A stretch of DNA of 64,000 bases from Halosegnis longus. GTDB lineage: Archaea; Halobacteriota; Halobacteria; Halobacteriales; Haloarculaceae. The stretch lies in contig NZ_QKNW01000001.1 in NCBI RefSeq assembly GCF_009663395.1, positions 1,364,001 to 1,428,000 on the forward strand, read 5' to 3'. Below the pieces are notes generated by a model, which did no database searches, had not been told where the DNA came from, and saw only the letters and a program-made list of their open reading frames with translations. Position numbers and translations under genes: made by a program. Shown piece after piece: positions 14,258 to 25,106 of this stretch (within the stretch, counting starts at the first letter, position 1; every line of letters starts with the position of its first letter).

Positions 14258-14905
14258 TCAGTCCTGTGGCGTGAACGCTTCAATCTGTTCAGTGTCTTCG
14301 TACGAGAGGCCGATCGCCTCCGCGGGCGGCGGACACGGCCCGGTGGTGACCTTCGTCGTTCCGATGAGGAGCCGACGGTCGCGAACGGTGTTGTACAGCC
14401 CCAGCAACGCGAGGAGCATTGCCGTCCCGATGGCGTAGGCAAAGCCCGGAAGCATCCCGAACGGCGGAACTCCTACCGCAGCTACGACCGACAGGGCCAA
14501 CAGCACGGCCCCGACGCCGAGATACACCTCGCTCCACGGCAGGTCGTTCGACGGGACGACATCCAGATAGATGTCGAACTCGTCGGTAGTGCGGGTCAGC
14601 GAGATGGTTCCGCGATTCCGGTCGTACTCCACGACGCCTAACTTCGCCATCTTCGGCAGATGGGTCTGGTGAAGCGCCGTGTACACGCGCTTGCGCTGTT
14701 TCGGCACCACCGCCTCGCGCTCGATGCCGTTTTCCCACGCCGCAATCTGTTCTGACAGCGCGCGCGTCGTCGTCTCCCCGCCAGTATGCGTCAGATAATG
14801 TAAGGCGTACCGTCGTCGGCGACTGCTCAGTGTTTCGAACACAGCGTCCGTTGTCAGTTCGTCGCGCTGCACGTCCTCTGAAATTTGTGCACCTACTTGT
14901 GTCAT
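14258..14905 (-). CDS. Winged-helix (DUF7344-like) regulator with C-terminal membrane segments
   Basis: A 215-residue protein; the ATG at 14905 is chosen because the 42 residues upstream lack family features. Residues about 15-105 form a winged-helix domain of the haloarchaeal type beginning FETLSSRRRRYALHYL and containing ALHQTHLPKM before the wing. Two to three hydrophobic segments follow (about 120-175), then a short tail. It is probably a membrane-bound transcriptional regulator. It is a paralogue of the protein at 17401-17931. Target genes unknown. Confidence 0.8.
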   Translation of the reverse strand: MTQVGAQISEDVQRDELTTDAVFETLSSRRRRYALHYLTHTGGETTTRALSEQIAAWENGIEREAVVPKQRKRVYTALHQTHLPKMAKLGVVEYDRNRGTISLTRTTDEFDIYLDVVPSNDLPWSEVYLGVGAVLLALSVVAAVGVPPFGMLPGFAYAIGTAMLLALLGLYNTVRDRRLLIGTTKVTTGPCPPPAEAIGLSYEDTEQIEAFTPQD

Positions 14906-15051
14906 GTCACCGCCCCCACGTCCCGTCAAGAACAACATAATATTCACCGCATGGATAATTAGACTGTCGACTGTCTCAAACATAACATGACACTCGCTGA
15001 ACAATTCGGTACGGGACACATACCTAATCACCTCGGTAGCGAAGCAGTGGT

Positions 15052-15915
15052 ATGCAGTACCGACAGCAGGGACAGAAGCGCCGACCGGAACTGACGCGGA
15101 CGCGACGGCTGCTTGCGGCGGTCAGACAGCCGGAGTACACCGGCGCGAATCGCTGTCTCCCGTGTATGGCCGTCAATCTCGTCCTCGCAGGGGTACTAAC
15201 GGGAGCGCTTTCCGTTGTCTCCGTCCCGGCCGCCGTCGCTGCCGCCGGCGTCTCGCTGGCGAGTATCTGGCTACGTGGCTATCTCGTCCCCGGAACGCCG
15301 ACGCTGACGAAGCGCTATCTCCCCGACCGCGTGTTGGCGTGGTTCGATAAGGCCGACCAGCCGGCCGGATTCGGGGTCGCTGGAACCGACGCGGCGCTTG
15401 ACGGTGACGTAGCGTCGTTCGACCCGACCGGATTCCTCCTGCGCGGCGACGTGTTACTCGACGACGAGACGGACGTACGGCTCGCGCCGACCTTCGAGGC
15501 TGAACTCGCCGAGCGCGCGCTCGCTATCGACGACCTCGACACCGCCGCGGCGCGGATGCTCGACACCTCGCCCGCGCAGATACGCACGACACAGGTGGGT
15601 GACGCGTGGCGCGTCCTCGTTGATGAGTACCGCGTCGGCAACTGGGAGTCGCGCGCGGCGTTCGTGGCCGATCTCGCCGCGCACGAGGTGCTCTCCGAGC
15701 GCGGCCTGTGGGACGAGATTCCAACCGAGGCCGGCGGCACCGTCCTCGCGTCGATTCGGGCGTGTTTGGAGACCTGCCCGGTGTGTGCCGGCTCTATCAC
15801 CTTCGGAACGACGGTCGTCGCCTCCTGCTGTCGTGAACACGAGGTCATCGCTGCGACGTGTGGCGACTGTGACGCCCGGCTGTTCGAGATACGCGCCGCA
15901 CAGGTTCCAGAGTAA
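15052..15915 (+). CDS. Membrane protein with C-terminal zinc ribbon, function unknown
   Basis: A 287-residue haloarchaeal protein. A short cysteine pair near the N-terminus (CLPC) precedes two hydrophobic segments (about 40-80). A soluble domain of about 150 residues follows. The C-terminal 60 residues hold CPVC ... CC ... CGDC, a likely zinc-binding ribbon. A TATA-like CATACCTAAT lies about 25-30 bases before the ATG. It is divergent from the winged-helix gene, with which it may be co-regulated. No enzymatic function is evident. Confidence 0.75.
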   Translation: MQYRQQGQKRRPELTRTRRLLAAVRQPEYTGANRCLPCMAVNLVLAGVLTGALSVVSVPAAVAAAGVSLASIWLRGYLVPGTPTLTKRYLPDRVLAWFDKADQPAGFGVAGTDAALDGDVASFDPTGFLLRGDVLLDDETDVRLAPTFEAELAERALAIDDLDTAAARMLDTSPAQIRTTQVGDAWRVLVDEYRVGNWESRAAFVADLAAHEVLSERGLWDEIPTEAGGTVLASIRACLETCPVCAGSITFGTTVVASCCREHEVIAATCGDCDARLFEIRAAQVPE

Positions 15916-15921
15916 CGGTGT

Positions 15922-17313
15922 TCAGGCGTCGGTACGCTCCTGTTGGGCAATCTTCGGGAGCGTCAACCGGAACACCGCCCCCTCGGGGTCGTTGTCGGTG
16001 ACCTGAATCTCGCCGCCGTACCGGTCGACGAGCATGTTGACGAGGTACAGCCCGATGCCGGTGCCGCTGCTTCCCAACCCCTTCTCGCCCTTGCCGAAAA
16101 TCGTCTCCTTGTGTGCGTCGGCGACGCCGGGCCCGTTGTCCGCGATGCTGACGACGACCTCCTCCGGCCGTTCTTCGACCGCGACGTGCACCTCCGGCAC
16201 TGGCTTGTCGTTGTGCTGGATGGCGTTTTTCAACAGATTCCGGAACACCGACGCCAGCATCTCGTCGGCCAGCACGGTCACCTCGTCGATCTGTCCGTCC
16301 ACAAGGATGGCCGCGTCGGGGTACGAGGCCCGGACGTTGTCGATTTCCGCCGTCAACAGCGGCCGGAGTCCAACCCGCTTTCGCTCCTCGCTTTCGGCAA
16401 ACAGCACGTTCGAGATGTCCGACGCGCTCTTGGTGAGTTCGACGGCGTGTTGTGCCCGCTCGCGGATGATCTCGACGTGTGAGTCGTGTTCCTCGGGGAT
16501 GTGCTCTGCGATCATCTCGGTGTAGGCGGTCACCAACTGGAGGTCATTTCGGATGTCGTGGCTGAGGACGCCGTTCAACACGTCGAGGGTGTCGCGCTGG
16601 CGCTTGAGTCGCTCCTCGTAGGCTTTCCGCTCGGAGATGTCGCGGGCGTACACCGAGAGTCCGTGCTCGTCGGCGAAGACGCGTATCTCGACCCAGTAGT
16701 CGAACGGCTCGGGGAGATAATGCTCGAACTCTGCTGGCTCACCCGAATCCATCACCTCACGGAGCTTGGTTTCGAGGTCGTCGGAAATCTCGTCGCCGAA
16801 CACCACCCAGAGATTCTCTCCGATGACTTCCTCCGGGTCAGTACCCGTGCGTTTCGCCATCCGGTCGCTCCAGAACGTTACCTTCCAGTCGGTGTCGACG
16901 GTGTACACCGCGTCGGTGGTTCGTCTGAGAAAGCGGTAGCGGTCCGAGATATCGGCGGCGGCGAACATCGCACCGTCGACCTCGCCGTCGTCGTCGTACA
17001 GCGGCTCGGCGGCCCCCCGATACCGACGCTGCCCCTCCGGCTTAATCGAGGTGAACTCCCGCTCGACGCGTGCTTCCGTGTCGATGGCATCCTCCTTGAT
17101 ACGCATCGCCGGCTCGGCGATTTCAGCCGAGAACAGTTCGGCGTCGGTCTTTCCGAGCGGCTCTGCGGTGGGTGGCTCGATTGCCGAGTCGTGGACCCAC
17201 TTGTGGCGGAGTTCAGCATCGACGTGTGCGCCGTTCATCCGGCCCGTTTCGAGCGCCAACTCGAGAAACCGACGGAGCTGTTCGTCGTCGTCCGGGAGTT
17301 CCGACTCGCTCAT
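15922..17313 (-). CDS. PAS-domain sensor histidine kinase
   Basis: A 463-residue cytoplasmic sensor kinase, starting at the ATG at 17313 (MSESELPDDDEQ) rather than 23 codons further up. Two PAS-type sensor domains (about 50-135 and 135-235) precede the dimerisation/phosphoacceptor helix with H252 (SHDIRNDLQL). The ATPase domain follows, with its N box (NLLKNAIQHND), G1 box (VSIADNGPGV) and G2 box (GSSGTGIGLYLV). No membrane segment is visible. No response regulator is adjacent, as is common for haloarchaeal kinases. The signal is unknown. Confidence 0.92.
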   Translation of the reverse strand: MSESELPDDDEQLRRFLELALETGRMNGAHVDAELRHKWVHDSAIEPPTAEPLGKTDAELFSAEIAEPAMRIKEDAIDTEARVEREFTSIKPEGQRRYRGAAEPLYDDDGEVDGAMFAAADISDRYRFLRRTTDAVYTVDTDWKVTFWSDRMAKRTGTDPEEVIGENLWVVFGDEISDDLETKLREVMDSGEPAEFEHYLPEPFDYWVEIRVFADEHGLSVYARDISERKAYEERLKRQRDTLDVLNGVLSHDIRNDLQLVTAYTEMIAEHIPEEHDSHVEIIRERAQHAVELTKSASDISNVLFAESEERKRVGLRPLLTAEIDNVRASYPDAAILVDGQIDEVTVLADEMLASVFRNLLKNAIQHNDKPVPEVHVAVEERPEEVVVSIADNGPGVADAHKETIFGKGEKGLGSSGTGIGLYLVNMLVDRYGGEIQVTDNDPEGAVFRLTLPKIAQQERTDA

Positions 17314-17400
17314 TCGCGGAGTGTTCTCGCTCCCCTCACTTATCCGTTTAGCAGAAAGCAGCCGACCATTGCCCCTCTTCACGCGCCGAACCGCGACTTC

Positions 17401-17931
17401 TCACCGTCGCAGAGCGCGCGTGAGCCACCATCGCACGCGCCCGCCGGTGAGTTGATACGCCGTTGAGACGGCGAACAGCCCGAGAAATACCGTCGCCGGA
17501 ATCAGTGGGTCGACGGCCCCGAGCAGGGGCACGTCGGCCAGCGTGGTCGTCGTGGCGAACAGCCCGACGAGTCCGAGCGCCCGATAATACTCCCCCCACG
17601 TGATGCCGGCCCGCGTCACGACATCCATGTACGGAGTGAGTCGGCGCGACGCCGGGAGCGCGGTGACGGTTTTCCGGTCGCCGTCGTACGCGACGAGTCC
17701 AAGCGCGTCCATCTTCGGCAGATGGGTCTGGTGGAGCGCGTTGTAGACGCTCTCGCGCAGCGCGCGCGGGGCGGGGTCGAGTCCCGACTCCGCGGTCGCG
17801 AGTCTCTCCGAGAGCGCCCGGAGGGTGTATGTCGTCTCCGCGTCCCACAACGCCGCGAGCGTCTCGCGACGGCGGGGATTGCTCAACACACCGTAGATTT
17901 CTGGCTCGGTCAGCGTCGACTGTGGGAACAC
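17401..17931 (-). CDS. Winged-helix (DUF7344-like) regulator with C-terminal membrane segments
   Basis: A 176-residue paralogue of the protein at 14258-14905. The winged helix (about 10-100) shares the stretch ALHQTHLPKM, and two hydrophobic segments lie at about 115-160. It is transcribed divergently from the SipW/TasA-like surface locus, with 294 bases between the starts, so it is a candidate local regulator. That link rests only on position. Confidence 0.8.
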   Translation of the reverse strand: MFPQSTLTEPEIYGVLSNPRRRETLAALWDAETTYTLRALSERLATAESGLDPAPRALRESVYNALHQTHLPKMDALGLVAYDGDRKTVTALPASRRLTPYMDVVTRAGITWGEYYRALGLVGLFATTTTLADVPLLGAVDPLIPATVFLGLFAVSTAYQLTGGRVRWWLTRALRR

Positions 17932-18130
17932 AAGCGTCGAACGCGTCGTTCGAGATTAGACATGCGCAGGCTACCGGGCGGTATGGTTTCCCATCCGTTG
18001 TGCTCAAACGGGCAATTTGGGCGGTAGGCACACCCCTCGGCGGCGGTAGGGCGACACTATTTTGCCGCGGATTTGTGGTACCCATACCCTGTAAACACGG
18101 GTTAGAGAGCCTGAAACGCTGAATCTGCGA

Positions 18131-18140
18131 TTATCTAATA
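18131..18140 (+). promoter_or_regulatory. TATA-like box upstream of the surface-protein locus
   Basis: TTATCTAATA is the best TATA-like element in the gap. Transcription from it would leave a 5-prime leader of about 60 bases, long enough to contain the hairpin at 18189-18199. The rest of the 294-base gap is G/C-rich with no other feature I can name. Confidence 0.35.
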
Positions 18141-18188
18141 CCTCCCTTGTCCTGGGGGGTGGTATACCCGAAGCCGACCGAACAGCCG

Positions 18189-18199
18189 CCCCGATGGGG
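18189..18199 (+). promoter_or_regulatory. Leader hairpin CCCC-GAT-GGGG
   Basis: A four-pair GC hairpin with a three-base loop followed immediately by AGG, in the presumed leader of the first surface protein. It lies 26 bases before the ATG. Similar hairpins precede the next two genes. Confidence 0.4.
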
Positions 18200-18225
18200 A
18201 GGTGGTCCAATCGGGACATACAACC

Positions 18226-19530
18226 ATGACATCCGACGACAACCAACCACAGCTGTACCGACTCTCGCGCCGCAACGTCCTCGCTGGTCTCGGGACCATC
18301 GGGCTCGCGTCCGCAGGCGCAGGTCTCGGCACCTCCGCGTTCTTCTCCGATGAGGAGAGCTTCGAGGACAACACCCTGACGGCAGGGTCACTCGACCTCC
18401 GCGTCCAGTACGAGGCTAGCTACGACAGTGACGGCGCAGTCCAGAACCTCGCCGACAGCGCGATGGGCACGCAGGACGGCACCCCTGCTTCTACGTTCTA
18501 TAATCTCGACGACGTGAAGCCGGGCGACTCCGGCCATGTCGAGTTCTGCTTCGACATCGTGGACAACCCCGCGTACGTGTGGGCGTGTGCAGACTACTCC
18601 GAAGCCGAGAACGGCATGAGCGAACCCGAGATGGATGTCGACCAGACGCCCGACGAGGGTGAGCTGGCCGACAGCATCGAGGCCGAGCTCGTCTACTGTG
18701 ATGAGGACGGCGAACCAATCCAGAACGGCGAAATCGTCTCCGGCTCGCTCGCCGAGGTTCTGGACGCGATCCGCTTCGGTGCCGCACTCGACGGTGACGG
18801 TGTCCCCAACGTGCCCGGCGAACAGTCGCCCCACGACACCCCGATGACGCCTCAGGGAGAGGCAACCTACGTGACCGGCGCGTGCATCTGTCTCTTCTGG
18901 GAGATCCCCTACGAGACCGTCGGCAACGAAATCCAGACCGACTCGCTGAGCATGAACTTCGAGTTCCACGCGCTGCAGTCGCGACACAACGACGGCACGA
19001 CGAACCCATGTCTCGACGGCACGACCACCGTCCAGTACGACAACGACTGGAAGGGCCAGACGCTCGGTAACCCGACCGACGGTAGCGTCACCACCGACGT
19101 GGCCTTCGGTCCCGACAACGTCGGCATCCGATTCACGTTCGAGGATGACGGCGATGGTGTTGATTTCCTCGACACCGCCGACTACTCCAGCACGAACCTC
19201 CCGGTCGTAATCGACGGGGACGCCGACGGTACCCACGACTTCCAGCTCATCTGGCAGCCGAACGCCGGCTTCCCGGACGCACCGTTCGGCTACCAAGAGA
19301 ACAACGGTGGTAGCTACTCCGCGACGACGGCTCTCCCGGCCGGCTTCTCGGCTGCGAAGAACGGGAACGAAATCGTGTTCACTGTCCCGCGTACTGAGAT
19401 TTCCTCGACGTTCCGGCTCCTCGCGTACGGTTCGACCGGTGGCGAGGGACCAATCGCAGAGGTCAACACCGACCCCGCGCTCGGGCCTGACTTCTACAAC
19501 AGCAGCAACGCCGTGTCGTTCAGCGAATAA
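18226..19530 (+). CDS. SipW/TasA-like exported surface protein, first of four
   Basis: A 434-residue exported protein. The signal region has RR (LSRRNVLAGLGTIGLASAG), ending near AFFSDEE and followed by DNTLTAGSLDL, the pattern of SipW-processed TasA/CalY-like proteins. A beta-rich domain with KPGDSG, CFDIVDNPAYVW and, near residue 240, the WEIP ... GNEIQ ... RHNDG block forms the family core. After it is a second domain of about 165 residues (beta-rich, many Asp/Asn/Gly) with no family I recognise. Alternative GTG at 18202 is rejected because it abuts the hairpin. It is probably a filament or matrix component outside the cell, by analogy with Bacillus TasA. Confidence 0.83.
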   Translation: MTSDDNQPQLYRLSRRNVLAGLGTIGLASAGAGLGTSAFFSDEESFEDNTLTAGSLDLRVQYEASYDSDGAVQNLADSAMGTQDGTPASTFYNLDDVKPGDSGHVEFCFDIVDNPAYVWACADYSEAENGMSEPEMDVDQTPDEGELADSIEAELVYCDEDGEPIQNGEIVSGSLAEVLDAIRFGAALDGDGVPNVPGEQSPHDTPMTPQGEATYVTGACICLFWEIPYETVGNEIQTDSLSMNFEFHALQSRHNDGTTNPCLDGTTTVQYDNDWKGQTLGNPTDGSVTTDVAFGPDNVGIRFTFEDDGDGVDFLDTADYSSTNLPVVIDGDADGTHDFQLIWQPNAGFPDAPFGYQENNGGSYSATTALPAGFSAAKNGNEIVFTVPRTEISSTFRLLAYGSTGGEGPIAEVNTDPALGPDFYNSSNAVSFSE

Positions 19531-19592
19531 GCGACGACCAGCGTTCGGTATCCCATACAGGACGGCGGGGGTTCGACTCCCTCGGTGGGATT

Positions 19593-19603
19593 CCCCTATG
19601 GGG
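19593..19603 (+). promoter_or_regulatory. Hairpin CCCC-TAT-GGGG overlapping the ribosome-binding site
   Basis: The right arm GGGG followed by AG forms the Shine-Dalgarno-like GGGGAG, five bases before the ATG at 19611. Folding would hide that site. Confidence 0.45.
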
Positions 19604-19610
19604 AGTAATC

Positions 19611-21344
19611 ATGACAAACGATCAGGAACCACAACTGTACCGCCTCTCGCGCCGGAACGTTCTGGCGGGCCTCGGGACCATCGGCCTCGCCTCGGCTGGC
19701 GCAGGCCTCGGCACCTCGGCATTCTTCTCCGACGAGGAGGAGTTCGTCGACAACACCCTCGTTGCTGGCGAGCTCGACCTGCTCGTCGACTGGCAACAGA
19801 CCTACGACTTCGGCGACGGCCACCAGTTCGTCAACGCTCACCCGGACCACGACGGCGACGGCGAGCAATCCGTCGATATCGACGGCGCTGTCAGCAAGTA
19901 CAGCGACTTCCCGGACACGGAAGACCCAGACAGCAACGGTGCGAACCTCCCCGTCCTCGACTGTGACAACATTCCGCCCCTCACCGAGGCCGACTTCGGT
20001 ACGGACCCCGTGACGGGCGAAGACATGGAGACGCTGGTCCAGTTCACGGACGTGAAGCCCGGTGACTCCGGCGAAGTCACCTTCTCGCTCCATCTCTGTG
20101 ACAACCCCGGCTACGTCTGGATGCAGGCGAACAACATTTCTGAGACTGGTGGCGCTGGCACCGAGCCGGAGCTCATCGTCGACCCGGACAACCTCGGTGA
20201 CCTCGGCGACGCGATTCAGGCGACCCTCTGGTACGACGAGGACTGTGACAACGTCTACGACGCGGCACGGCCGGTCGATATCATGCTGACGCTGGACTTC
20301 TCCGGCTCCATGCTGTACAATCAGTACGGCGGCGTCATCAGCAACGACGACATCCAGATTGACGGATTCACCTACGACGAGACGACGAAGATCGACCTCG
20401 TCGAACTCGGCACCCGGCAGTTCGTCAACTACCTGCAGGCGCAAAACGCCGACGTGCAGGTCGGTGTCGCCTACTTCGACGGCGAAGGCAGCGACGACAC
20501 CGAACCCCGGACTGGCGTGCTCCAGCCGCTGACGAACGATCTCTCGGTTGTCGATGGCGCACTCTCGGACCTTCGACAGAAGCTCGCCAACCTCGTAACC
20601 GGTTCCGGCCCGAACTCGACGCCATCCGACGGCGACGGCAACCCGGACCCGTTCTCGAACGCGAGCGGTATCGCGACGGGCACCTACATCGGCGAGGGTG
20701 TCGACGACGCGCAGGCGGAACTCGCAAGCAACGGTCGCACCAGCGCCGAAAAGCGGAACATCGTCCTCTCTGACGGTGAGTCGTTCAACGGCACCGGCTC
20801 GACGCAGTTCTCCTCACCCACGGCAGCGGCCGACAACGCACGACTCGGCAGCTCCAGTGGCGGCGTTGACCCGGAGACCAGCCTCTACACCATCTCGGTC
20901 GGCAGCGCGAACGATGCGGTGCTCCAGTCGATGGCCGGCGCGGCCGGTGACGTGACCGGCGACGACGCCACGTTCTTCAGCGACGTTGACGACCCGCTGA
21001 ACATCCCGACTGTGTTCGGGAACCTCGCGGCCCAGACCGTCGAGGAGAAGGTCATCATGGAGGATTCGCTGACGAACGTGCTGGCGGAACTCGCAGACGG
21101 CAACGGTATCCCGCTCGACGGGAACCGCGCGACCATCTACGACGAACTCGCGGACCCGGCCGACGACGCCGACCGCGATGCCTTCCGCGGCGATGGCGTG
21201 ATGCACTGTGTCGCGCTCGAGTGGGAGCTCCCCTTCGAGGTCGGGAACGAAGTGCAGGGCGACACGCTCGGCTTCGATATCGGCTTCTACACCGAACAGG
21301 AGCGGCACAACGACGGCTCTGGCCCGGCGAATACGCCGGCCTGA
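19611..21344 (+). CDS. SipW/TasA-like exported protein with nested von Willebrand A domain
   Basis: A 577-residue paralogue of the upstream protein, with a nearly identical signal region and cleavage site. The TasA-like core starts normally (KPGDSGEVTF, CDNPGYVW) but is split after the stretch LWYDEDC by a VWA domain at about residues 222-480. The MIDAS metal site is D229-x-S231-x-S233 in LDFSGSM. The core then resumes with VIMEDSLTNVL and ends WELPFEVGNEVQGD ... RHNDG. The VWA domain could mediate metal-dependent adhesion. No cell-wall anchor is seen at the C-terminus. Confidence 0.85.
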   Translation: MTNDQEPQLYRLSRRNVLAGLGTIGLASAGAGLGTSAFFSDEEEFVDNTLVAGELDLLVDWQQTYDFGDGHQFVNAHPDHDGDGEQSVDIDGAVSKYSDFPDTEDPDSNGANLPVLDCDNIPPLTEADFGTDPVTGEDMETLVQFTDVKPGDSGEVTFSLHLCDNPGYVWMQANNISETGGAGTEPELIVDPDNLGDLGDAIQATLWYDEDCDNVYDAARPVDIMLTLDFSGSMLYNQYGGVISNDDIQIDGFTYDETTKIDLVELGTRQFVNYLQAQNADVQVGVAYFDGEGSDDTEPRTGVLQPLTNDLSVVDGALSDLRQKLANLVTGSGPNSTPSDGDGNPDPFSNASGIATGTYIGEGVDDAQAELASNGRTSAEKRNIVLSDGESFNGTGSTQFSSPTAAADNARLGSSSGGVDPETSLYTISVGSANDAVLQSMAGAAGDVTGDDATFFSDVDDPLNIPTVFGNLAAQTVEEKVIMEDSLTNVLAELADGNGIPLDGNRATIYDELADPADDADRDAFRGDGVMHCVALEWELPFEVGNEVQGDTLGFDIGFYTEQERHNDGSGPANTPA

Positions 21345-21365
21345 TACCAGCTGATTTTGCTGGTA
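21345..21365 (+). terminator. Hairpin directly after the VWA gene
   Basis: TACCAGC and GCTGGTA form a seven-pair stem around a T-rich loop, starting at the base after the stop codon. It may end or process the transcript. Archaeal terminators are usually plain T runs, so the role is uncertain. Confidence 0.35.
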
Positions 21366-21499
21366 ACGGGACGTGGTAGTCACGGCCTACCGGCACATCA
21401 CCGACGCATACCTATACCGTCGGCTGGCATCAGAACAGACGAATCATGCGGGACCGACCCGAGCTACCGACCCGGCGTGTTCCGGGCACACCACGTCAG

Positions 21500-21514
21500 C
21501 CACCGATTCGGTGG
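21500..21514 (+). promoter_or_regulatory. Hairpin CCACCG-ATT-CGGTGG before the third surface gene
   Basis: A six-pair stem with a three-base loop followed by AGG, giving a Shine-Dalgarno-like GGTGGAGG whose first part is in the stem, 11 bases before the ATG at 21529. Same arrangement as at 18189 and 19593 but with different stem bases. Confidence 0.45.
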
Positions 21515-21528
21515 AGGATAACCATACG

Positions 21529-22329
21529 ATGAAATTCACACGTCGGCAACTGTTGGCAGGACTCGGCGGCGGGTCCCTCGCACTCGGAGGCGTTACCTTC
21601 GGGCAGCGACCGCCACAATTCACGGAGTACACCTACGCCGCACCGAGCGACGATACCGACGACGGGCGAATGCGCGTCGCGTGGTACGAGACGTACAACG
21701 GCGCGACGGTGGAGACGCAGGCGGTCACGACCGACGGCGAGGAAGCCCTCGACCCGGTCGACGGTCCCGGCTACGTCACCGACGCGACGTTCGTGACGGA
21801 CGTGTCCGGCCCGGTCATCAGTATCGGGAACGTCATGCCCGGTGACACCGGCACGCTCGTCGTCGGCATCGAGGTCGTCGACGAGGCGAACGCCGCCCCG
21901 CTCGACGTGTATCTCCGCGCGGCCGTCACCGGTGACGCGGAAAACGGTATCAACGAACCGGAGCTGGTCGCCGGCGACACGACGACCGACGACGGGGAAC
22001 TCGACGAGTCCGTGACGGTCGAGGTGTGGCGTGATGGCTCGCCGTTCGGCGGCTGTGACGGCGCCCGACAGTTCGGCGCGGTGCTCGAACCCGCGCTCAT
22101 CGAGGAGACGACGGCAGCGGCCGGCTTCACCGGCGATGTCGCGGGCGACGGCGTACTCGCGTTCGACTGTCTCTCCGTCGGTGAACTCCGGTGTGTCGCC
22201 CTCCGGTGGGCGCTCCCGGCGACGACCGGCAACGAGATACAGGGTGACAGCGCGGCGTTCGACGTTGCGTTCGGCGGCGTCGCCTGTGGGAGTGACAGCC
22301 CCTTCGCTGTCACGGGAGGTGCACAATGA
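21529..22329 (+). CDS. SipW/TasA-like exported protein, third
   Basis: A 266-residue exported protein. The ATG at 21529 gives a clean RR signal (MKFTRRQLLAGLGGGSLAL); the frame upstream has no signal features. The core has MPGDTGTLVVGIEVVDE, NGINEPELV and the closing block WALPATTGNEIQGDSAAFDVAF. It lacks the RHNDG element and any extra domain. Its last four bases overlap the next start (ATGA), so translation is coupled. It is probably a minor subunit or accessory part of the same surface structure. Confidence 0.8.
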   Translation: MKFTRRQLLAGLGGGSLALGGVTFGQRPPQFTEYTYAAPSDDTDDGRMRVAWYETYNGATVETQAVTTDGEEALDPVDGPGYVTDATFVTDVSGPVISIGNVMPGDTGTLVVGIEVVDEANAAPLDVYLRAAVTGDAENGINEPELVAGDTTTDDGELDESVTVEVWRDGSPFGGCDGARQFGAVLEPALIEETTAAAGFTGDVAGDGVLAFDCLSVGELRCVALRWALPATTGNEIQGDSAAFDVAFGGVACGSDSPFAVTGGAQ

Positions 22330-23537
22330 GTGGTGACGTGAGTCGCCGACGCGTGCTCGCCGCCCTCGCGGCCGCGGGCGCTGGCGGTGCCCTCACCGGC
22401 AACACCACCGCGGCCGCCCTCACCGACCGTGAGGGAACGGGCGGTGTGCTCACGGCTGGTGCGCTCGATATCGACATCGCCTACGAGATACTCACCGGCC
22501 CCGAGGCCGGAACGACCGGCACCACGAACGGGGTGCGACTTCCGCTCCCGCTCGGCACGCTCACCGACACGGTGTCCTCGGGCGCGACACGCATCACCGT
22601 CGGCGTGCCCGACCAGCCCGACGCCGTCGCCAACCCGGCGGCGGTGTGGCTGGCGACCGACTGTCCGCCGGAGGCGACGACGCTCGCAGAGGCGCTGTCC
22701 GTCACCGTCTCGTACGCCGAGACGGGCGAGGTGGTGGCGTCCGGCTCGCTTCGCGAGGTCGCAGACGACCTCCGTGGCGGGGTTCGACTCGACGGCGAGC
22801 CGACGAGCGCCGGCGACGACTGTGTCGCGGACGCGCTCGACTTGCTGTTCGAGTACGAGCTCACCGACTACGTCGGCACCGAGTCGACGGACCTCGTCGT
22901 GGAGTTCGCCGCCAGACAGTGCCGGTACGACGACGGGACGAACCCCTTCGCGGGCCGGTCGGCCGAACCGTGTGCGACCACGCCGGAGCCGTGTGTCTGC
23001 TGTCGCTACCTCGGGAAACTGAATCTCGAGGACGACGGGCGCGCAGGCATCGGCGAGAGCTTCATCGCACCCGGTGGCCCGTACTACTTCGACGAGGGCG
23101 ACAGCCGCTACGGCATCGTGGTGACGGACACCACGACCAAAGACAACGGAACGGAGACGACCGGCGTCGCGTTCCGACTGGTCGAGCGCAACGGCGCGCC
23201 CACAGAGCGACTCTGCCGCGTCGAGGTGAAGGGCGGACGGAACACGCTGAGATACGAAGGAACTGGCTCGGATACGACAGCCCTCGACGGGGCCGACGGT
23301 GACGGTATCATCGTCGCACCCGACGGGAAGGCAATCAGCAACATCCAGGTCTACGTCTGTGACGACGCGTCGGCGTGTGCCGACGACGTATCGAGCAGCG
23401 ACACGAACGACACGAGCGGTGATGACGACCACGACGGCGACAACAACAACAACGGCCGCGGACCCGGGCGTGGCGGTGGCCGCGGTCGCGACAAGAAGAA
23501 CGATGACACCAAAGACAAACGTGGGGGATGGAAGTGA
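22326..23537 (+). CDS. SipW/TasA-like exported protein with CC motif and charged Asn/Gly-rich tail
   Basis: A 403-residue exported protein. The signal has SRRRVLAALAAAGAGG and a SipW-like site (TDREGTGGVLTAGALDIDI). The first domain is the TasA-like core, ending EFAARQCRYDDGTN. A cysteine cluster (CVCCRYLGKL, about 220) then introduces a second beta-rich domain. The last 50 residues are Asp/Asn, then Gly/Arg/Lys-rich, a likely disordered and charged end. It may belong to the haloarchaeal CC-star (HcsL/HcsS) group, which I recall only vaguely. Coupled to both neighbours. Confidence 0.78.
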   Translation: MSGDVSRRRVLAALAAAGAGGALTGNTTAAALTDREGTGGVLTAGALDIDIAYEILTGPEAGTTGTTNGVRLPLPLGTLTDTVSSGATRITVGVPDQPDAVANPAAVWLATDCPPEATTLAEALSVTVSYAETGEVVASGSLREVADDLRGGVRLDGEPTSAGDDCVADALDLLFEYELTDYVGTESTDLVVEFAARQCRYDDGTNPFAGRSAEPCATTPEPCVCCRYLGKLNLEDDGRAGIGESFIAPGGPYYFDEGDSRYGIVVTDTTTKDNGTETTGVAFRLVERNGAPTERLCRVEVKGGRNTLRYEGTGSDTTALDGADGDGIIVAPDGKAISNIQVYVCDDASACADDVSSSDTNDTSGDDDHDGDNNNNGRGPGRGGGRGRDKKNDDTKDKRGGWK

Positions 23538-24376
23538 GCGATAGCCCGATGCGGCGGGGAATCGCCGTTGCGGTGACGCTCGCGTTGGTCGTCGCCGTCG
23601 TCCCGTTCGTGCTGTTCGCCGTCCCGGGGCTCGTGGGCGCGGAACACGCCTTCGTCGTGCTCTCGGGGAGCATGGAGCCGGCGCTCTCGCCGGGGGATAT
23701 CGTCTTCGTCGACGCCGACGCGGCCATCGCGACGGGTGACGTCATCACCTACGCCGGCGGCGACGTACCAATCACGCACCGCGTCATCGACACGGTCGAC
23801 GGTGGCTACCTGACCCAGGGTGATGCCAACGAGGATCCCGATTCGGGCGTCGTCGCTGCCGACACCGTGCTCGGTGAGGTAGCGTTCTCGATTCCGGTCG
23901 TCGGGCGTGTCGTCCTCTGGGCGAACACCTCGCTCGGCTACCTCGCGCTCGTGGTGGTCCCGCTGTTCCTGCTCGTCGCGAACGAGCTGTTCGAGTGGGC
24001 GCGCCGCGGTGACGACGAGGAGTCCGACGCAGACGCACCGATTCCGGCGATTCGTCCAATCGACGACTCCCCGTCGACACAGCCGACCCAAACTCCAGAG
24101 CCCTCCGACTCCGGAATGGTCGCGGTCGCGCTCGTGGACCTGAAGCTGACGGTGCTCGCGTTAGGGATACTGCTGGCGTACGCGGCGTGGAACATCCGCG
24201 CCGAGTTCGGTCTCACCGGCGCGCCGGACCCGATTTCGGTCGGGGCCGCGACCGCTGGACTGGTCGGCATCCTGTTCACCGGCTGGGTGACGTTCACCGC
24301 GTGGCGGACCGCGCGGGTGTCGATGCCGACGCCGGTCGCACAGACCGACGGCGGCGTGGAGGTGGACGATGAGTAG
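23528..24376 (+). CDS. Signal peptidase I, archaeal/SipW type
   Basis: A 282-residue membrane serine protease that removes signal peptides at the outer face. The first membrane helix (about 11-35) is followed by the catalytic S48 in VLSGSMEPALSPGDIV and by H84 in ITHRVID. Histidine replaces the bacterial lysine, as in SipW and ER-type enzymes. Asp-rich GDANEDPD follows. Two or more further hydrophobic segments lie in the C-terminal half, longer than in minimal enzymes. It is embedded among four SipW-type substrates, so it probably processes them. Start and stop overlap both neighbours. Confidence 0.9.
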   Translation: MEVSDSPMRRGIAVAVTLALVVAVVPFVLFAVPGLVGAEHAFVVLSGSMEPALSPGDIVFVDADAAIATGDVITYAGGDVPITHRVIDTVDGGYLTQGDANEDPDSGVVAADTVLGEVAFSIPVVGRVVLWANTSLGYLALVVVPLFLLVANELFEWARRGDDEESDADAPIPAIRPIDDSPSTQPTQTPEPSDSGMVAVALVDLKLTVLALGILLAYAAWNIRAEFGLTGAPDPISVGAATAGLVGILFTGWVTFTAWRTARVSMPTPVAQTDGGVEVDDE

Positions 24377-25106
24377 ACTGGTCGTCCTCGCCGTCGCCGC
24401 GTTCGTCGTCTTCGCGGCGGCGACCGGCGGGCAGGGCGTCATCGCCGTCCTCGGCGACGAGGAGTCGACGAGCGTTCGGTTCAGCGCCGACGTCGACGCG
24501 CCGTCGCCGTCGGTCGCGCCGACGAGTCTCGGAACCGGAGACTCGGCTGGCGCGCGCGTGGCCGACAACGCCACGAACACGACCGACCTCGGACCGACGA
24601 ACACGACGGAGACGAACACGACCGACGTGGACACACCCGACGTGAACGCCACGAACACGTCCGACGCGTCCGATCCGGTCGCACCCACTCCGGAGAAAAA
24701 CGCGAGCACGAACGAGTCGGCGACGGACCCCCCGACGCCGACACCACAGACTCCCGCGACGAACGGCACGGATGCGACGAGTGATACGCCGACACCGGTC
24801 CCCGCTGACAACGAGACGGCTGTCGAATCTGAGTCGACGCCGACGCCAACGCCGGAGGCGGAGTCGACCCCGACGCCAGAGACGGAATCGGCTCCAACTC
24901 CGACGCCGGAGCCAGAATCAACGCCAACCGTGACGCCGGCATCGACGCCGGAGCCAGCATCGCCGACCCAGACTCCCACCCCGGAACCGACCGCGACCCC
25001 GACACCAGAGTCGATCGCGACCCCGACGCCTGACGGCGAGTCAGCGACCGTGGTGAACGACCGACTGCTCGATGTTTCGGCCCAGATACTGCTCGGCCTG
25101 TTCTAA
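24369..25106 (+). CDS. Exported Pro/Thr-rich low-complexity protein
   Basis: A 245-residue protein, last gene of the surface operon (ATGA overlap). An N-terminal hydrophobic segment (VVLAVAAFVVFAAATGG) is followed by LGDEESTSVRFSAD, faintly like the SipW cleavage region. Most of the rest is Asn/Thr then Thr-Pro-Thr-Pro-Glu repeats, a typical extended stalk open to O-glycosylation. The C-terminal LLDVSAQILLGLF is weakly hydrophobic. It may be a spacer or adhesion stalk. The last 66 bases overlap the end of the convergent phosphatase gene. Confidence 0.7.
   Translation: MSRLVVLAVAAFVVFAAATGGQGVIAVLGDEESTSVRFSADVDAPSPSVAPTSLGTGDSAGARVADNATNTTDLGPTNTTETNTTDVDTPDVNATNTSDASDPVAPTPEKNASTNESATDPPTPTPQTPATNGTDATSDTPTPVPADNETAVESESTPTPTPEAESTPTPETESAPTPTPEPESTPTVTPASTPEPASPTQTPTPEPTATPTPESIATPTPDGESATVVNDRLLDVSAQILLGLF

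Follow-up and report, generated by a model that had tools for sequence, protein, structure and literature searches.

Does a run of six genes in the haloarchaeon Halosegnis longus encode a TasA/camelysin-type surface filament, processed by a signal peptidase of its own? The genes lie in the window analyzed here (64,000 nucleotides, positions 1364001-1428000 of contig C1; genome 2.77 Mb), where six real open reading frames (ORFs), all on the + strand, occupy positions 18226-25106. As a preliminary description had stated, four tandem exported proteins (P0001 to P0004) are followed by a signal peptidase with Ser-His motifs (P0005) and a Pro/Thr-rich exported protein (P0006), an order upheld by the ORFs, the TIGR02228 model and residues S48 and H84. 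We conclude that the locus probably encodes such a filament, with the export, assembly, subunit and regulatory roles proposed below. That it is a TasA-like surface locus with its own SipW-like peptidase is well supported by a common protein family and fold, the clustering of peptidase with substrates, and a Phe conserved after the presumed cleavage site.

As judged by profile comparison, P0001 to P0004 are one homologous family. The family profiles of P0001 and P0002 align at E 2e-68 in two blocks split by a VWA domain, which is therefore inserted inside a TasA-like core. The P0003 family (p3) matches P0002 at E 6e-30, and the P0004 family (p4) matches P0001 at E 4e-35 (hhalign) and p3 at E 8e-22. 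These scores come partly from the signal region; the p4-P0001 and p4-p3 alignments nonetheless span the domain. The core motifs PGDSG and GNEIQGD, previously ascribed to all four proteins, recur in P0003 (as MPGDTG and GNEIQGD) and are both missing from P0004, whose kinship appears through its profile only. Pfam and NCBIfam scans matched no type IV pilin family, and matches of the pilin profile to sialoadhesin were judged to be chance.

Predicted structures point in the same direction. The P0003 model (predicted local distance difference test, pLDDT, 73.8) has as its top three Foldseek matches the TasA fibre (8aur, E 2e-4), the Pyrobaculum bundling pilus (7ueg) and the Sulfolobus thread (7pnb), with VIA Z scores of 8.4/8.1/7.9 to TasA (8aur 8.4), 6.4 to 7ueg and 5.3 to 7pnb. 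In the P0001 model (pLDDT 75.5) the core, residues ~50-75 to 259, matches TasA with Z 9.9/9.4/8.6 (5of2 9.9; 8aur 8.6), and 8aur is one of two listed Foldseek matches with probability 1.00. Both models resemble the TasA fibre best. With TasA as the best domain-covering match, a TasA-type beta-sandwich is predicted for the P0001 core and P0003 with moderate confidence (pLDDT 74-76), and profile homology would place P0002 and P0004 in the same fold family. The Pfam name of a matching family, Peptidase_M73 (PF12389), suggests instead that the four are camelysin-like metallo-endopeptidases. P0001 exceeds the cut-off of this family (23.2 bits) and 33/35 aligned proteins match it at E <= 0.01, but the match is confined to residues 21-63, which hold the signal and the first strand, and the fold is that of TasA fibres, not proteases; this identity is hardly credible.

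The signal peptides raise the question of how these proteins are exported and cut. All four are of the twin-arginine (RR) type, unlike the Sec-type signal of TasA proper, which has no RR; export is apparently by the twin-arginine translocation (Tat) pathway, not by Sec. P0001 (26.7 bits) and P0002 (19.7 bits) exceed the cut-off (19 bits) of TIGR04088, the model for SipW-dependent signal peptides. A Phe occurs two residues after the presumed cut (P2') in 33/35 and 24/25 pilins (57/60 together), as in TasA, and the N-terminal segment that contains it aligns with the TasA donor strand. In Bacillus, the P2' Phe renders the TasA site a poor LepB substrate and goes with SipW (PMC10269814).

P0005 matches the TIGR02228 signal peptidase model with 82.9 bits (cut-off 51.85). 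Its 73.8 bits with NF046067, the Bacillus SipW equivalog model, fall short of the 190 required there; it is SipW-like in role and not the Bacillus equivalog. Residues S48, H84, D99 and D105 are invariant in the window protein and 19 relatives, and the nearest Protein Data Bank relatives are SEC11C/SEC11A. On these signatures it is classed as a Ser-His signal peptidase of the archaeal/endoplasmic reticulum type. TIGR02228 is a general archaeal model, and such a match would also suit a housekeeping enzyme located here by chance. That is very unlikely, given that the clustered peptidase type recurs beside pilins in nearly all loci and that, of the three signal peptidase genes in the genome, two lie in TasA clusters (one each) and the third stands at C1:1042664, apart from any TasA-like gene. 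All five TIGR04088 matches in the genome fall within the two SipW-bearing clusters. Genome context thus gives good support to the dedication of P0005 to cluster substrates.

The cluster is conserved well beyond this genome. About 80 loci were fetched, some overlapping one another, and most of them, from dozens of Halobacteria, show the order T...T, T-VWA, p3, p4, SipW, p6 (T, TasA-like pilin; p6, counterpart of P0006). Gaps are ~110 bp between T genes and ~190 bp from T to p3. The p3-p4 and p4-SipW pairs overlap by a median of 4 bp, with a gap of <=10 bp in 38/41 and 43/49 cases, respectively; the 4-bp overlap of P0003 and P0004 is conserved in relatives. Orthologues of P0002 in other genera are 70-79% identical over their full length. 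The p3 profile has matches (E <= 1e-3), which may include other family members, in 68/145 well-completed genomes of the class. H. longus itself has a second, diverged TasA-SipW cluster at about 69.4-73.8 kb of C1 (L050:6448-10765), a smaller version with a divergent DUF7344 gene, T, an RNA element, a second T, SipW and a P/T-rich protein. A viral origin was rejected, as no viral contig encodes a relative. We found no description of the haloarchaeal cluster or its RNA element in the open-access literature; subscription journals may mention them.

Domains have been added to the shared core. The VWA domain announced in the preliminary description is indeed present in P0002: Pfam PF00092 matches at E 1e-4 (23.1 bits, just under the cut-off of 23.8), and the metal ion-dependent adhesion site (MIDAS; D229-x-S231-x-S233, T358, D388) is invariant across 12 aligned orthologues. 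The C-terminal domain of P0001 (about residues 285-434) matches CBM9 modules with Z 11.0-10.6 (7nwn 11.0; 8% identity), a match of fold only, which EbdC-type proteins have too. Close relatives of P0001 keep the core and bear a different C-terminal domain; this domain is exchangeable. C216 and C226 of P0004 are invariant. These modular VWA, CBM9-like and Cys-rich additions fit the composite filament proposed earlier, whose polymerization we infer. Elsewhere in P0002, residues 77-84 (window about 19839-19862) read H-P-D-H-D-G-D-G, are (nearly) invariant in orthologues and resemble a calcium-binding loop. Polyubiquitin matches to P0002 residues 471-510 were judged to be chance, a 40-residue stretch summed over repeats of which none passes alone.

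Directly after SipW, about 50 loci carry a p6-like gene. It encodes a small protein whose hydrophobic signal precedes a box like A-L-[LF]-[ST]-D-x-E-x-V; the remainder is rich in P/T/S/N/D/E/G. Compared with shuffles of the post-signal part, the box scores above the 95th percentile in 22/50 and above the 99th in 16/50 (expected 0.5). In Bacillus, TapA supplies the first donor strand to TasA, and tapA overlaps sipW (PMC9674648, PMC10151520). The TapA family model TIGR04087 matched neither P0006 nor its relatives; we propose that p6 may be a functional analogue of TapA, not a homologue. A small membrane protein (P-G-x(n)-K-R-N, then hydrophobic) follows p6 in six loci (L041, L043, L044, L058, L066, L069) and is absent after P0006. 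A tRNA-Asp called by ARAGORN at 24404-24499 lies within the P0006 coding frame and is probably false.

The locus also contains a conserved, covarying RNA hairpin, previously undescribed. Located upstream of pilin genes, it comprises the stem-loop C-GGCGG-TTCGACT-CCGCC-G, the sequence GGTGGG and, next to the start codon, a CCCC/GGGG hairpin. Within the 64 kb, CCCCNATGGGGAG occurs only in the leader hairpin at 18189 and at 19593 (expected 0.01). The CCCC/GGGG hairpin is found within 60 nt of 93/244 pilin genes against a background of 1.1%; its copies were not aligned in register, and no covariation is therefore claimed for it. For the T-arm-like stem (below), the search pattern of an unselected pairing test fixed only the loop and two inner pairs. 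Near pilin genes, the three pairs beyond these form in 72/72, 70/72 and 72/72 unique sites; elsewhere they form in 27/39, 26/39 and 15/39 sites, and some of these other sites are true copies. Among 40 copies, changes on both sides occur at 4/6 pairs, which 0/500 shuffles reach; these copies were preselected for pairing, and the unselected test is the cleaner one.

Across the whole genome, a covariance model gave two strong matches, before P0002 (52.6 bits, E 1.4e-15) and in the second cluster (E 4.9e-6), ahead of its second pilin gene (C1:71490-71540; L050:8491-8541, - strand); the next match has E 0.04. Class-wide, 93/116 genomes have a match at E <= 0.01; some of the weaker matches cover just the stem. 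In 60 fetched regions, picked from strong matches and not randomly, 73 strict copies precede TasA-type genes (48: T 41, p4 4, p3 3), DUF1102-type genes (12) and others (13), several of the last group encoding proteins with a signal peptide. The DUF1102-type twin-arginine proteins with the element lie outside TasA clusters (L128, L132, L133, L135, L139, L144, L145) and are relatives (E 8e-13 and 1e-11) of 9p0a, a solved structure named Pilin. No Rfam model (of 4227) matches the element in the window (E <= 5), or about a dozen further copies in four loci (E <= 1).

The element has the stem and loop of a tRNA T-arm. Because tRNA arms are frequent integrase targets and pilin genes are repeated in tandem, it could be a relic or copy of a T-arm, or an integrase attachment site, spread by pilin gene duplication, with no function as RNA. 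We consider this improbable in view of the compensatory changes, the orientation of copies with a GGTGGG-like part (106 sense, 0 antisense), the fixed position just 5' of start codons and the association with a second pilin family. The element is, moreover, nearly absent before first genes, preceding 5/79 of these and 92/172 later pilin genes (Fisher p 4e-14, indicative only since loci overlap); it precedes 0/55 p4 and 0/71 SipW genes. An RNase Z minihelix is not favored, the stem having only 6 pairs and the flanks no acceptor-like pairing. We lean towards a cis-acting RNA that would serve class-wide in haloarchaea as a control element for exported filament subunit genes, common to the TasA-like and DUF1102/9P0A-like twin-arginine pilin families. 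It may mimic a tRNA T-arm and so be recognized by a tRNA-handling protein, or it may act between cistrons as a switch of processing or translation. Separately, a hairpin TACCAGC-TGATTTT-GCTGGTA (21345-21365) lies directly 3' of the P0002 stop and is a possible attenuator or stabilizer ahead of P0003.

How might these parts work together? We predict that the subunits would fold before they exit via Tat and that each would fill its own acceptor groove, as soluble TasA does. Cleavage by the cluster's SipW ahead of the Phe-rich N-terminal strand would then free this strand to insert into the next subunit by donor-strand exchange. P0001 is the likeliest stalk subunit and would display its sugar-binding-like domain, and P0002 would expose its VWA domain as a metal-dependent adhesin. 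P0003 and P0004, whose translation is coupled to that of SipW, may be minor base subunits. P0006 offers hardly more than a donor-strand-like segment and a stalk; like TapA, it could nucleate or anchor the fibre. Transcription may be under the control of the divergent DUF7344 protein, and the RNA element before P0002 may set translation or processing of the downstream pilin genes, and hence subunit ratios. A role in biofilms is conceivable only by analogy with the TasA fibres, which give Bacillus biofilms their cohesion.

Several observations weigh against this scheme. The filament itself is a prediction from genes and models. Mean model pLDDT is 74-76 with a poorly defined N-terminal strand, TM-scores to TasA are modest (0.23-0.43), and Pfam/NCBIfam support is confined to the N-terminal region. 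Tat export is read from the twin-arginine motif alone, with TIGR01409 below its cut-off. P0004 reaches 15.1 bits with TIGR04088, under the cut-off (17/25 p4 family members match at E <= 1), and P0003 lacks the SipW box, TIGR04088 matching 0/35 members of its family; the cleavage region earlier said to be shared thus holds for P0001, P0002 and p4 in relatives, and fails for P0003. The core-only first pilin of many relatives is missing from this cluster, and P0006 itself is indistinct from its own shuffles. It is conceivable, though unlikely, that the four are non-polymerizing TasA jelly-roll proteins for surface display or adhesion, either monomeric or attached to the S-layer. The large VWA and CBM9-like domains suit individual adhesins, and the lack of fibre evidence and of a resolved donor strand in the models is compatible with that role. 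Several tandem paralogues with a dedicated peptidase, the alignment of the Phe-containing segment with the TasA donor strand, and best folds for P0003 that are all donor-strand filaments argue instead for assembly into a filament.

Among known systems, Bacillus subtilis tapA-sipW-tasA (8AUR, 5OF1/5OF2) shares the jelly-roll subunit fold, the SipW-type cleavage region with P2' Phe, an adjacent Ser-His SipW, an extra protein gene overlapping sipW and a local regulator. The Bacillus-type arrangement in the preliminary description nevertheless does not carry over intact: the haloarchaeal signals are twin-arginine instead of Sec-type, and one of the four subunits has no SipW site. The haloarchaeal cluster also differs in its several paralogous subunits, its inserted VWA and CBM9-like domains, a p6 that lacks an evident folded domain, unlike TapA, DUF7344 in place of SinR, and RNA elements between genes. 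P0001 to P0004 probably work like TasA but are not TasA proper. Pyrobaculum bundling pili (7UEG) and Sulfolobus threads (7PNB) are likewise archaeal donor-strand filaments; their likeness to P0003 is distant, and the matched chains lack VWA or CBM9-like domains. Sulfolobus threads are thought to be Sec-exported (PMC9715654). In Bacillus cereus sipW-calY, too, several camelysin genes share an operon with that of a specific SipW (PMC10151520). The haloarchaeal DUF1102-type pilin (9P0A) has a closely similar twin-arginine signal and relatives with this RNA element in front of their genes, but its mature domain differs by sequence and no shared fold with the cluster pilins was found. For sipW-calY, neither a VWA insertion nor a Tat signal nor a p3/p4/p6 set is known to us.

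The locus is better drawn as 14258-25106, because DUF7344 regulators and a Cys-containing membrane-type protein are conserved upstream (Table 1). Homologues of the first regulator, R1, occur in 71 loci, where they usually lie upstream of the first pilin gene, divergent from it and 100-450 bp away; close homologues of R2 lie upstream of R1 in many loci. Of about 80 loci, 35 have phmmer matches to the Cys-containing protein, in most cases at a distance of 0.5-2.3 kb from the cluster; no Pfam family exceeds its cut-off in this protein. A PAS/HisKA-type sensor kinase (15922-17382, - strand) is lodged among these neighbors; it was rejected as a system member, with homologues near only few other loci. 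The conserved upstream regulator, the twin-arginine signals on all four pilins and the intercistronic RNA element had gone unnoticed in the preliminary description.

Table 1. Features of the locus (window positions)
Feature	Position	Strand	Evidence
R2, second DUF7344 winged-helix and membrane-helix regulator	14258..15031	-	Pfam DUF7344 E 2e-30
Cys-containing membrane-type protein, between the two regulators in many relatives	15052..15915	+	phmmer
R1, divergent DUF7344 regulator, likely local transcription regulator	17401..17931	-	Pfam DUF7344 E 4e-25
Small CCCC-NAT-GGGG hairpin, P0001 leader	18189..18201	+	CCCCNATGGGGAG
P0001, twin-arginine TasA-like pilin core with C-terminal CBM9-like beta-sandwich	18226..19530	+	Peptidase_M73, TIGR04088, model
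T-loop hairpin RNA element, intercistronic, ends on P0002 start codon	19563..19613	+	covariance model 52.6 bits
P0002, twin-arginine TasA-like pilin with VWA inside core; putative tip/adhesin subunit	19611..21344	+	TIGR04088, split profile alignment
VWA insert of P0002 with MIDAS, approximate extent	20271..21038	+	invariants, insertion boundaries, Pfam VWA
P0003 (p3), twin-arginine subunit with TasA-like core only; no SipW-type cleavage box	21529..22329	+	model, TIGR04088 0/35
P0004 (p4), twin-arginine TasA-like core with conserved cysteines and Gly/Asp/Lys-rich tail	22326..23537	+	hhalign
P0005, SipW-like archaeal signal peptidase, Ser48/His84 and Asp99/Asp105	23528..24376	+	TIGR02228, invariants
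P0006 (p6), hydrophobic signal, SipW-box-like segment and P/T-rich stalk; proposed donor-strand supplier/anchor	24369..25106	+	similar gene after SipW in relatives

The TasA/SipW biofilm-fibre system, known from Bacillus, thus extends to Halobacteria, where a large, conserved family of modular build seemingly uses the twin-arginine route. If this is true, how a donor-strand pilin folds and crosses the membrane ahead of the release of its donor strand becomes a direct question. The layout, with a VWA adhesin, a sugar-binding-like subunit, minor base subunits and a TapA-like p6, assigns each gene a testable role. The RNA element, which would be a new archaeal regulatory RNA, links two pilin families and may therefore be used as a marker for finding further surface-filament genes.

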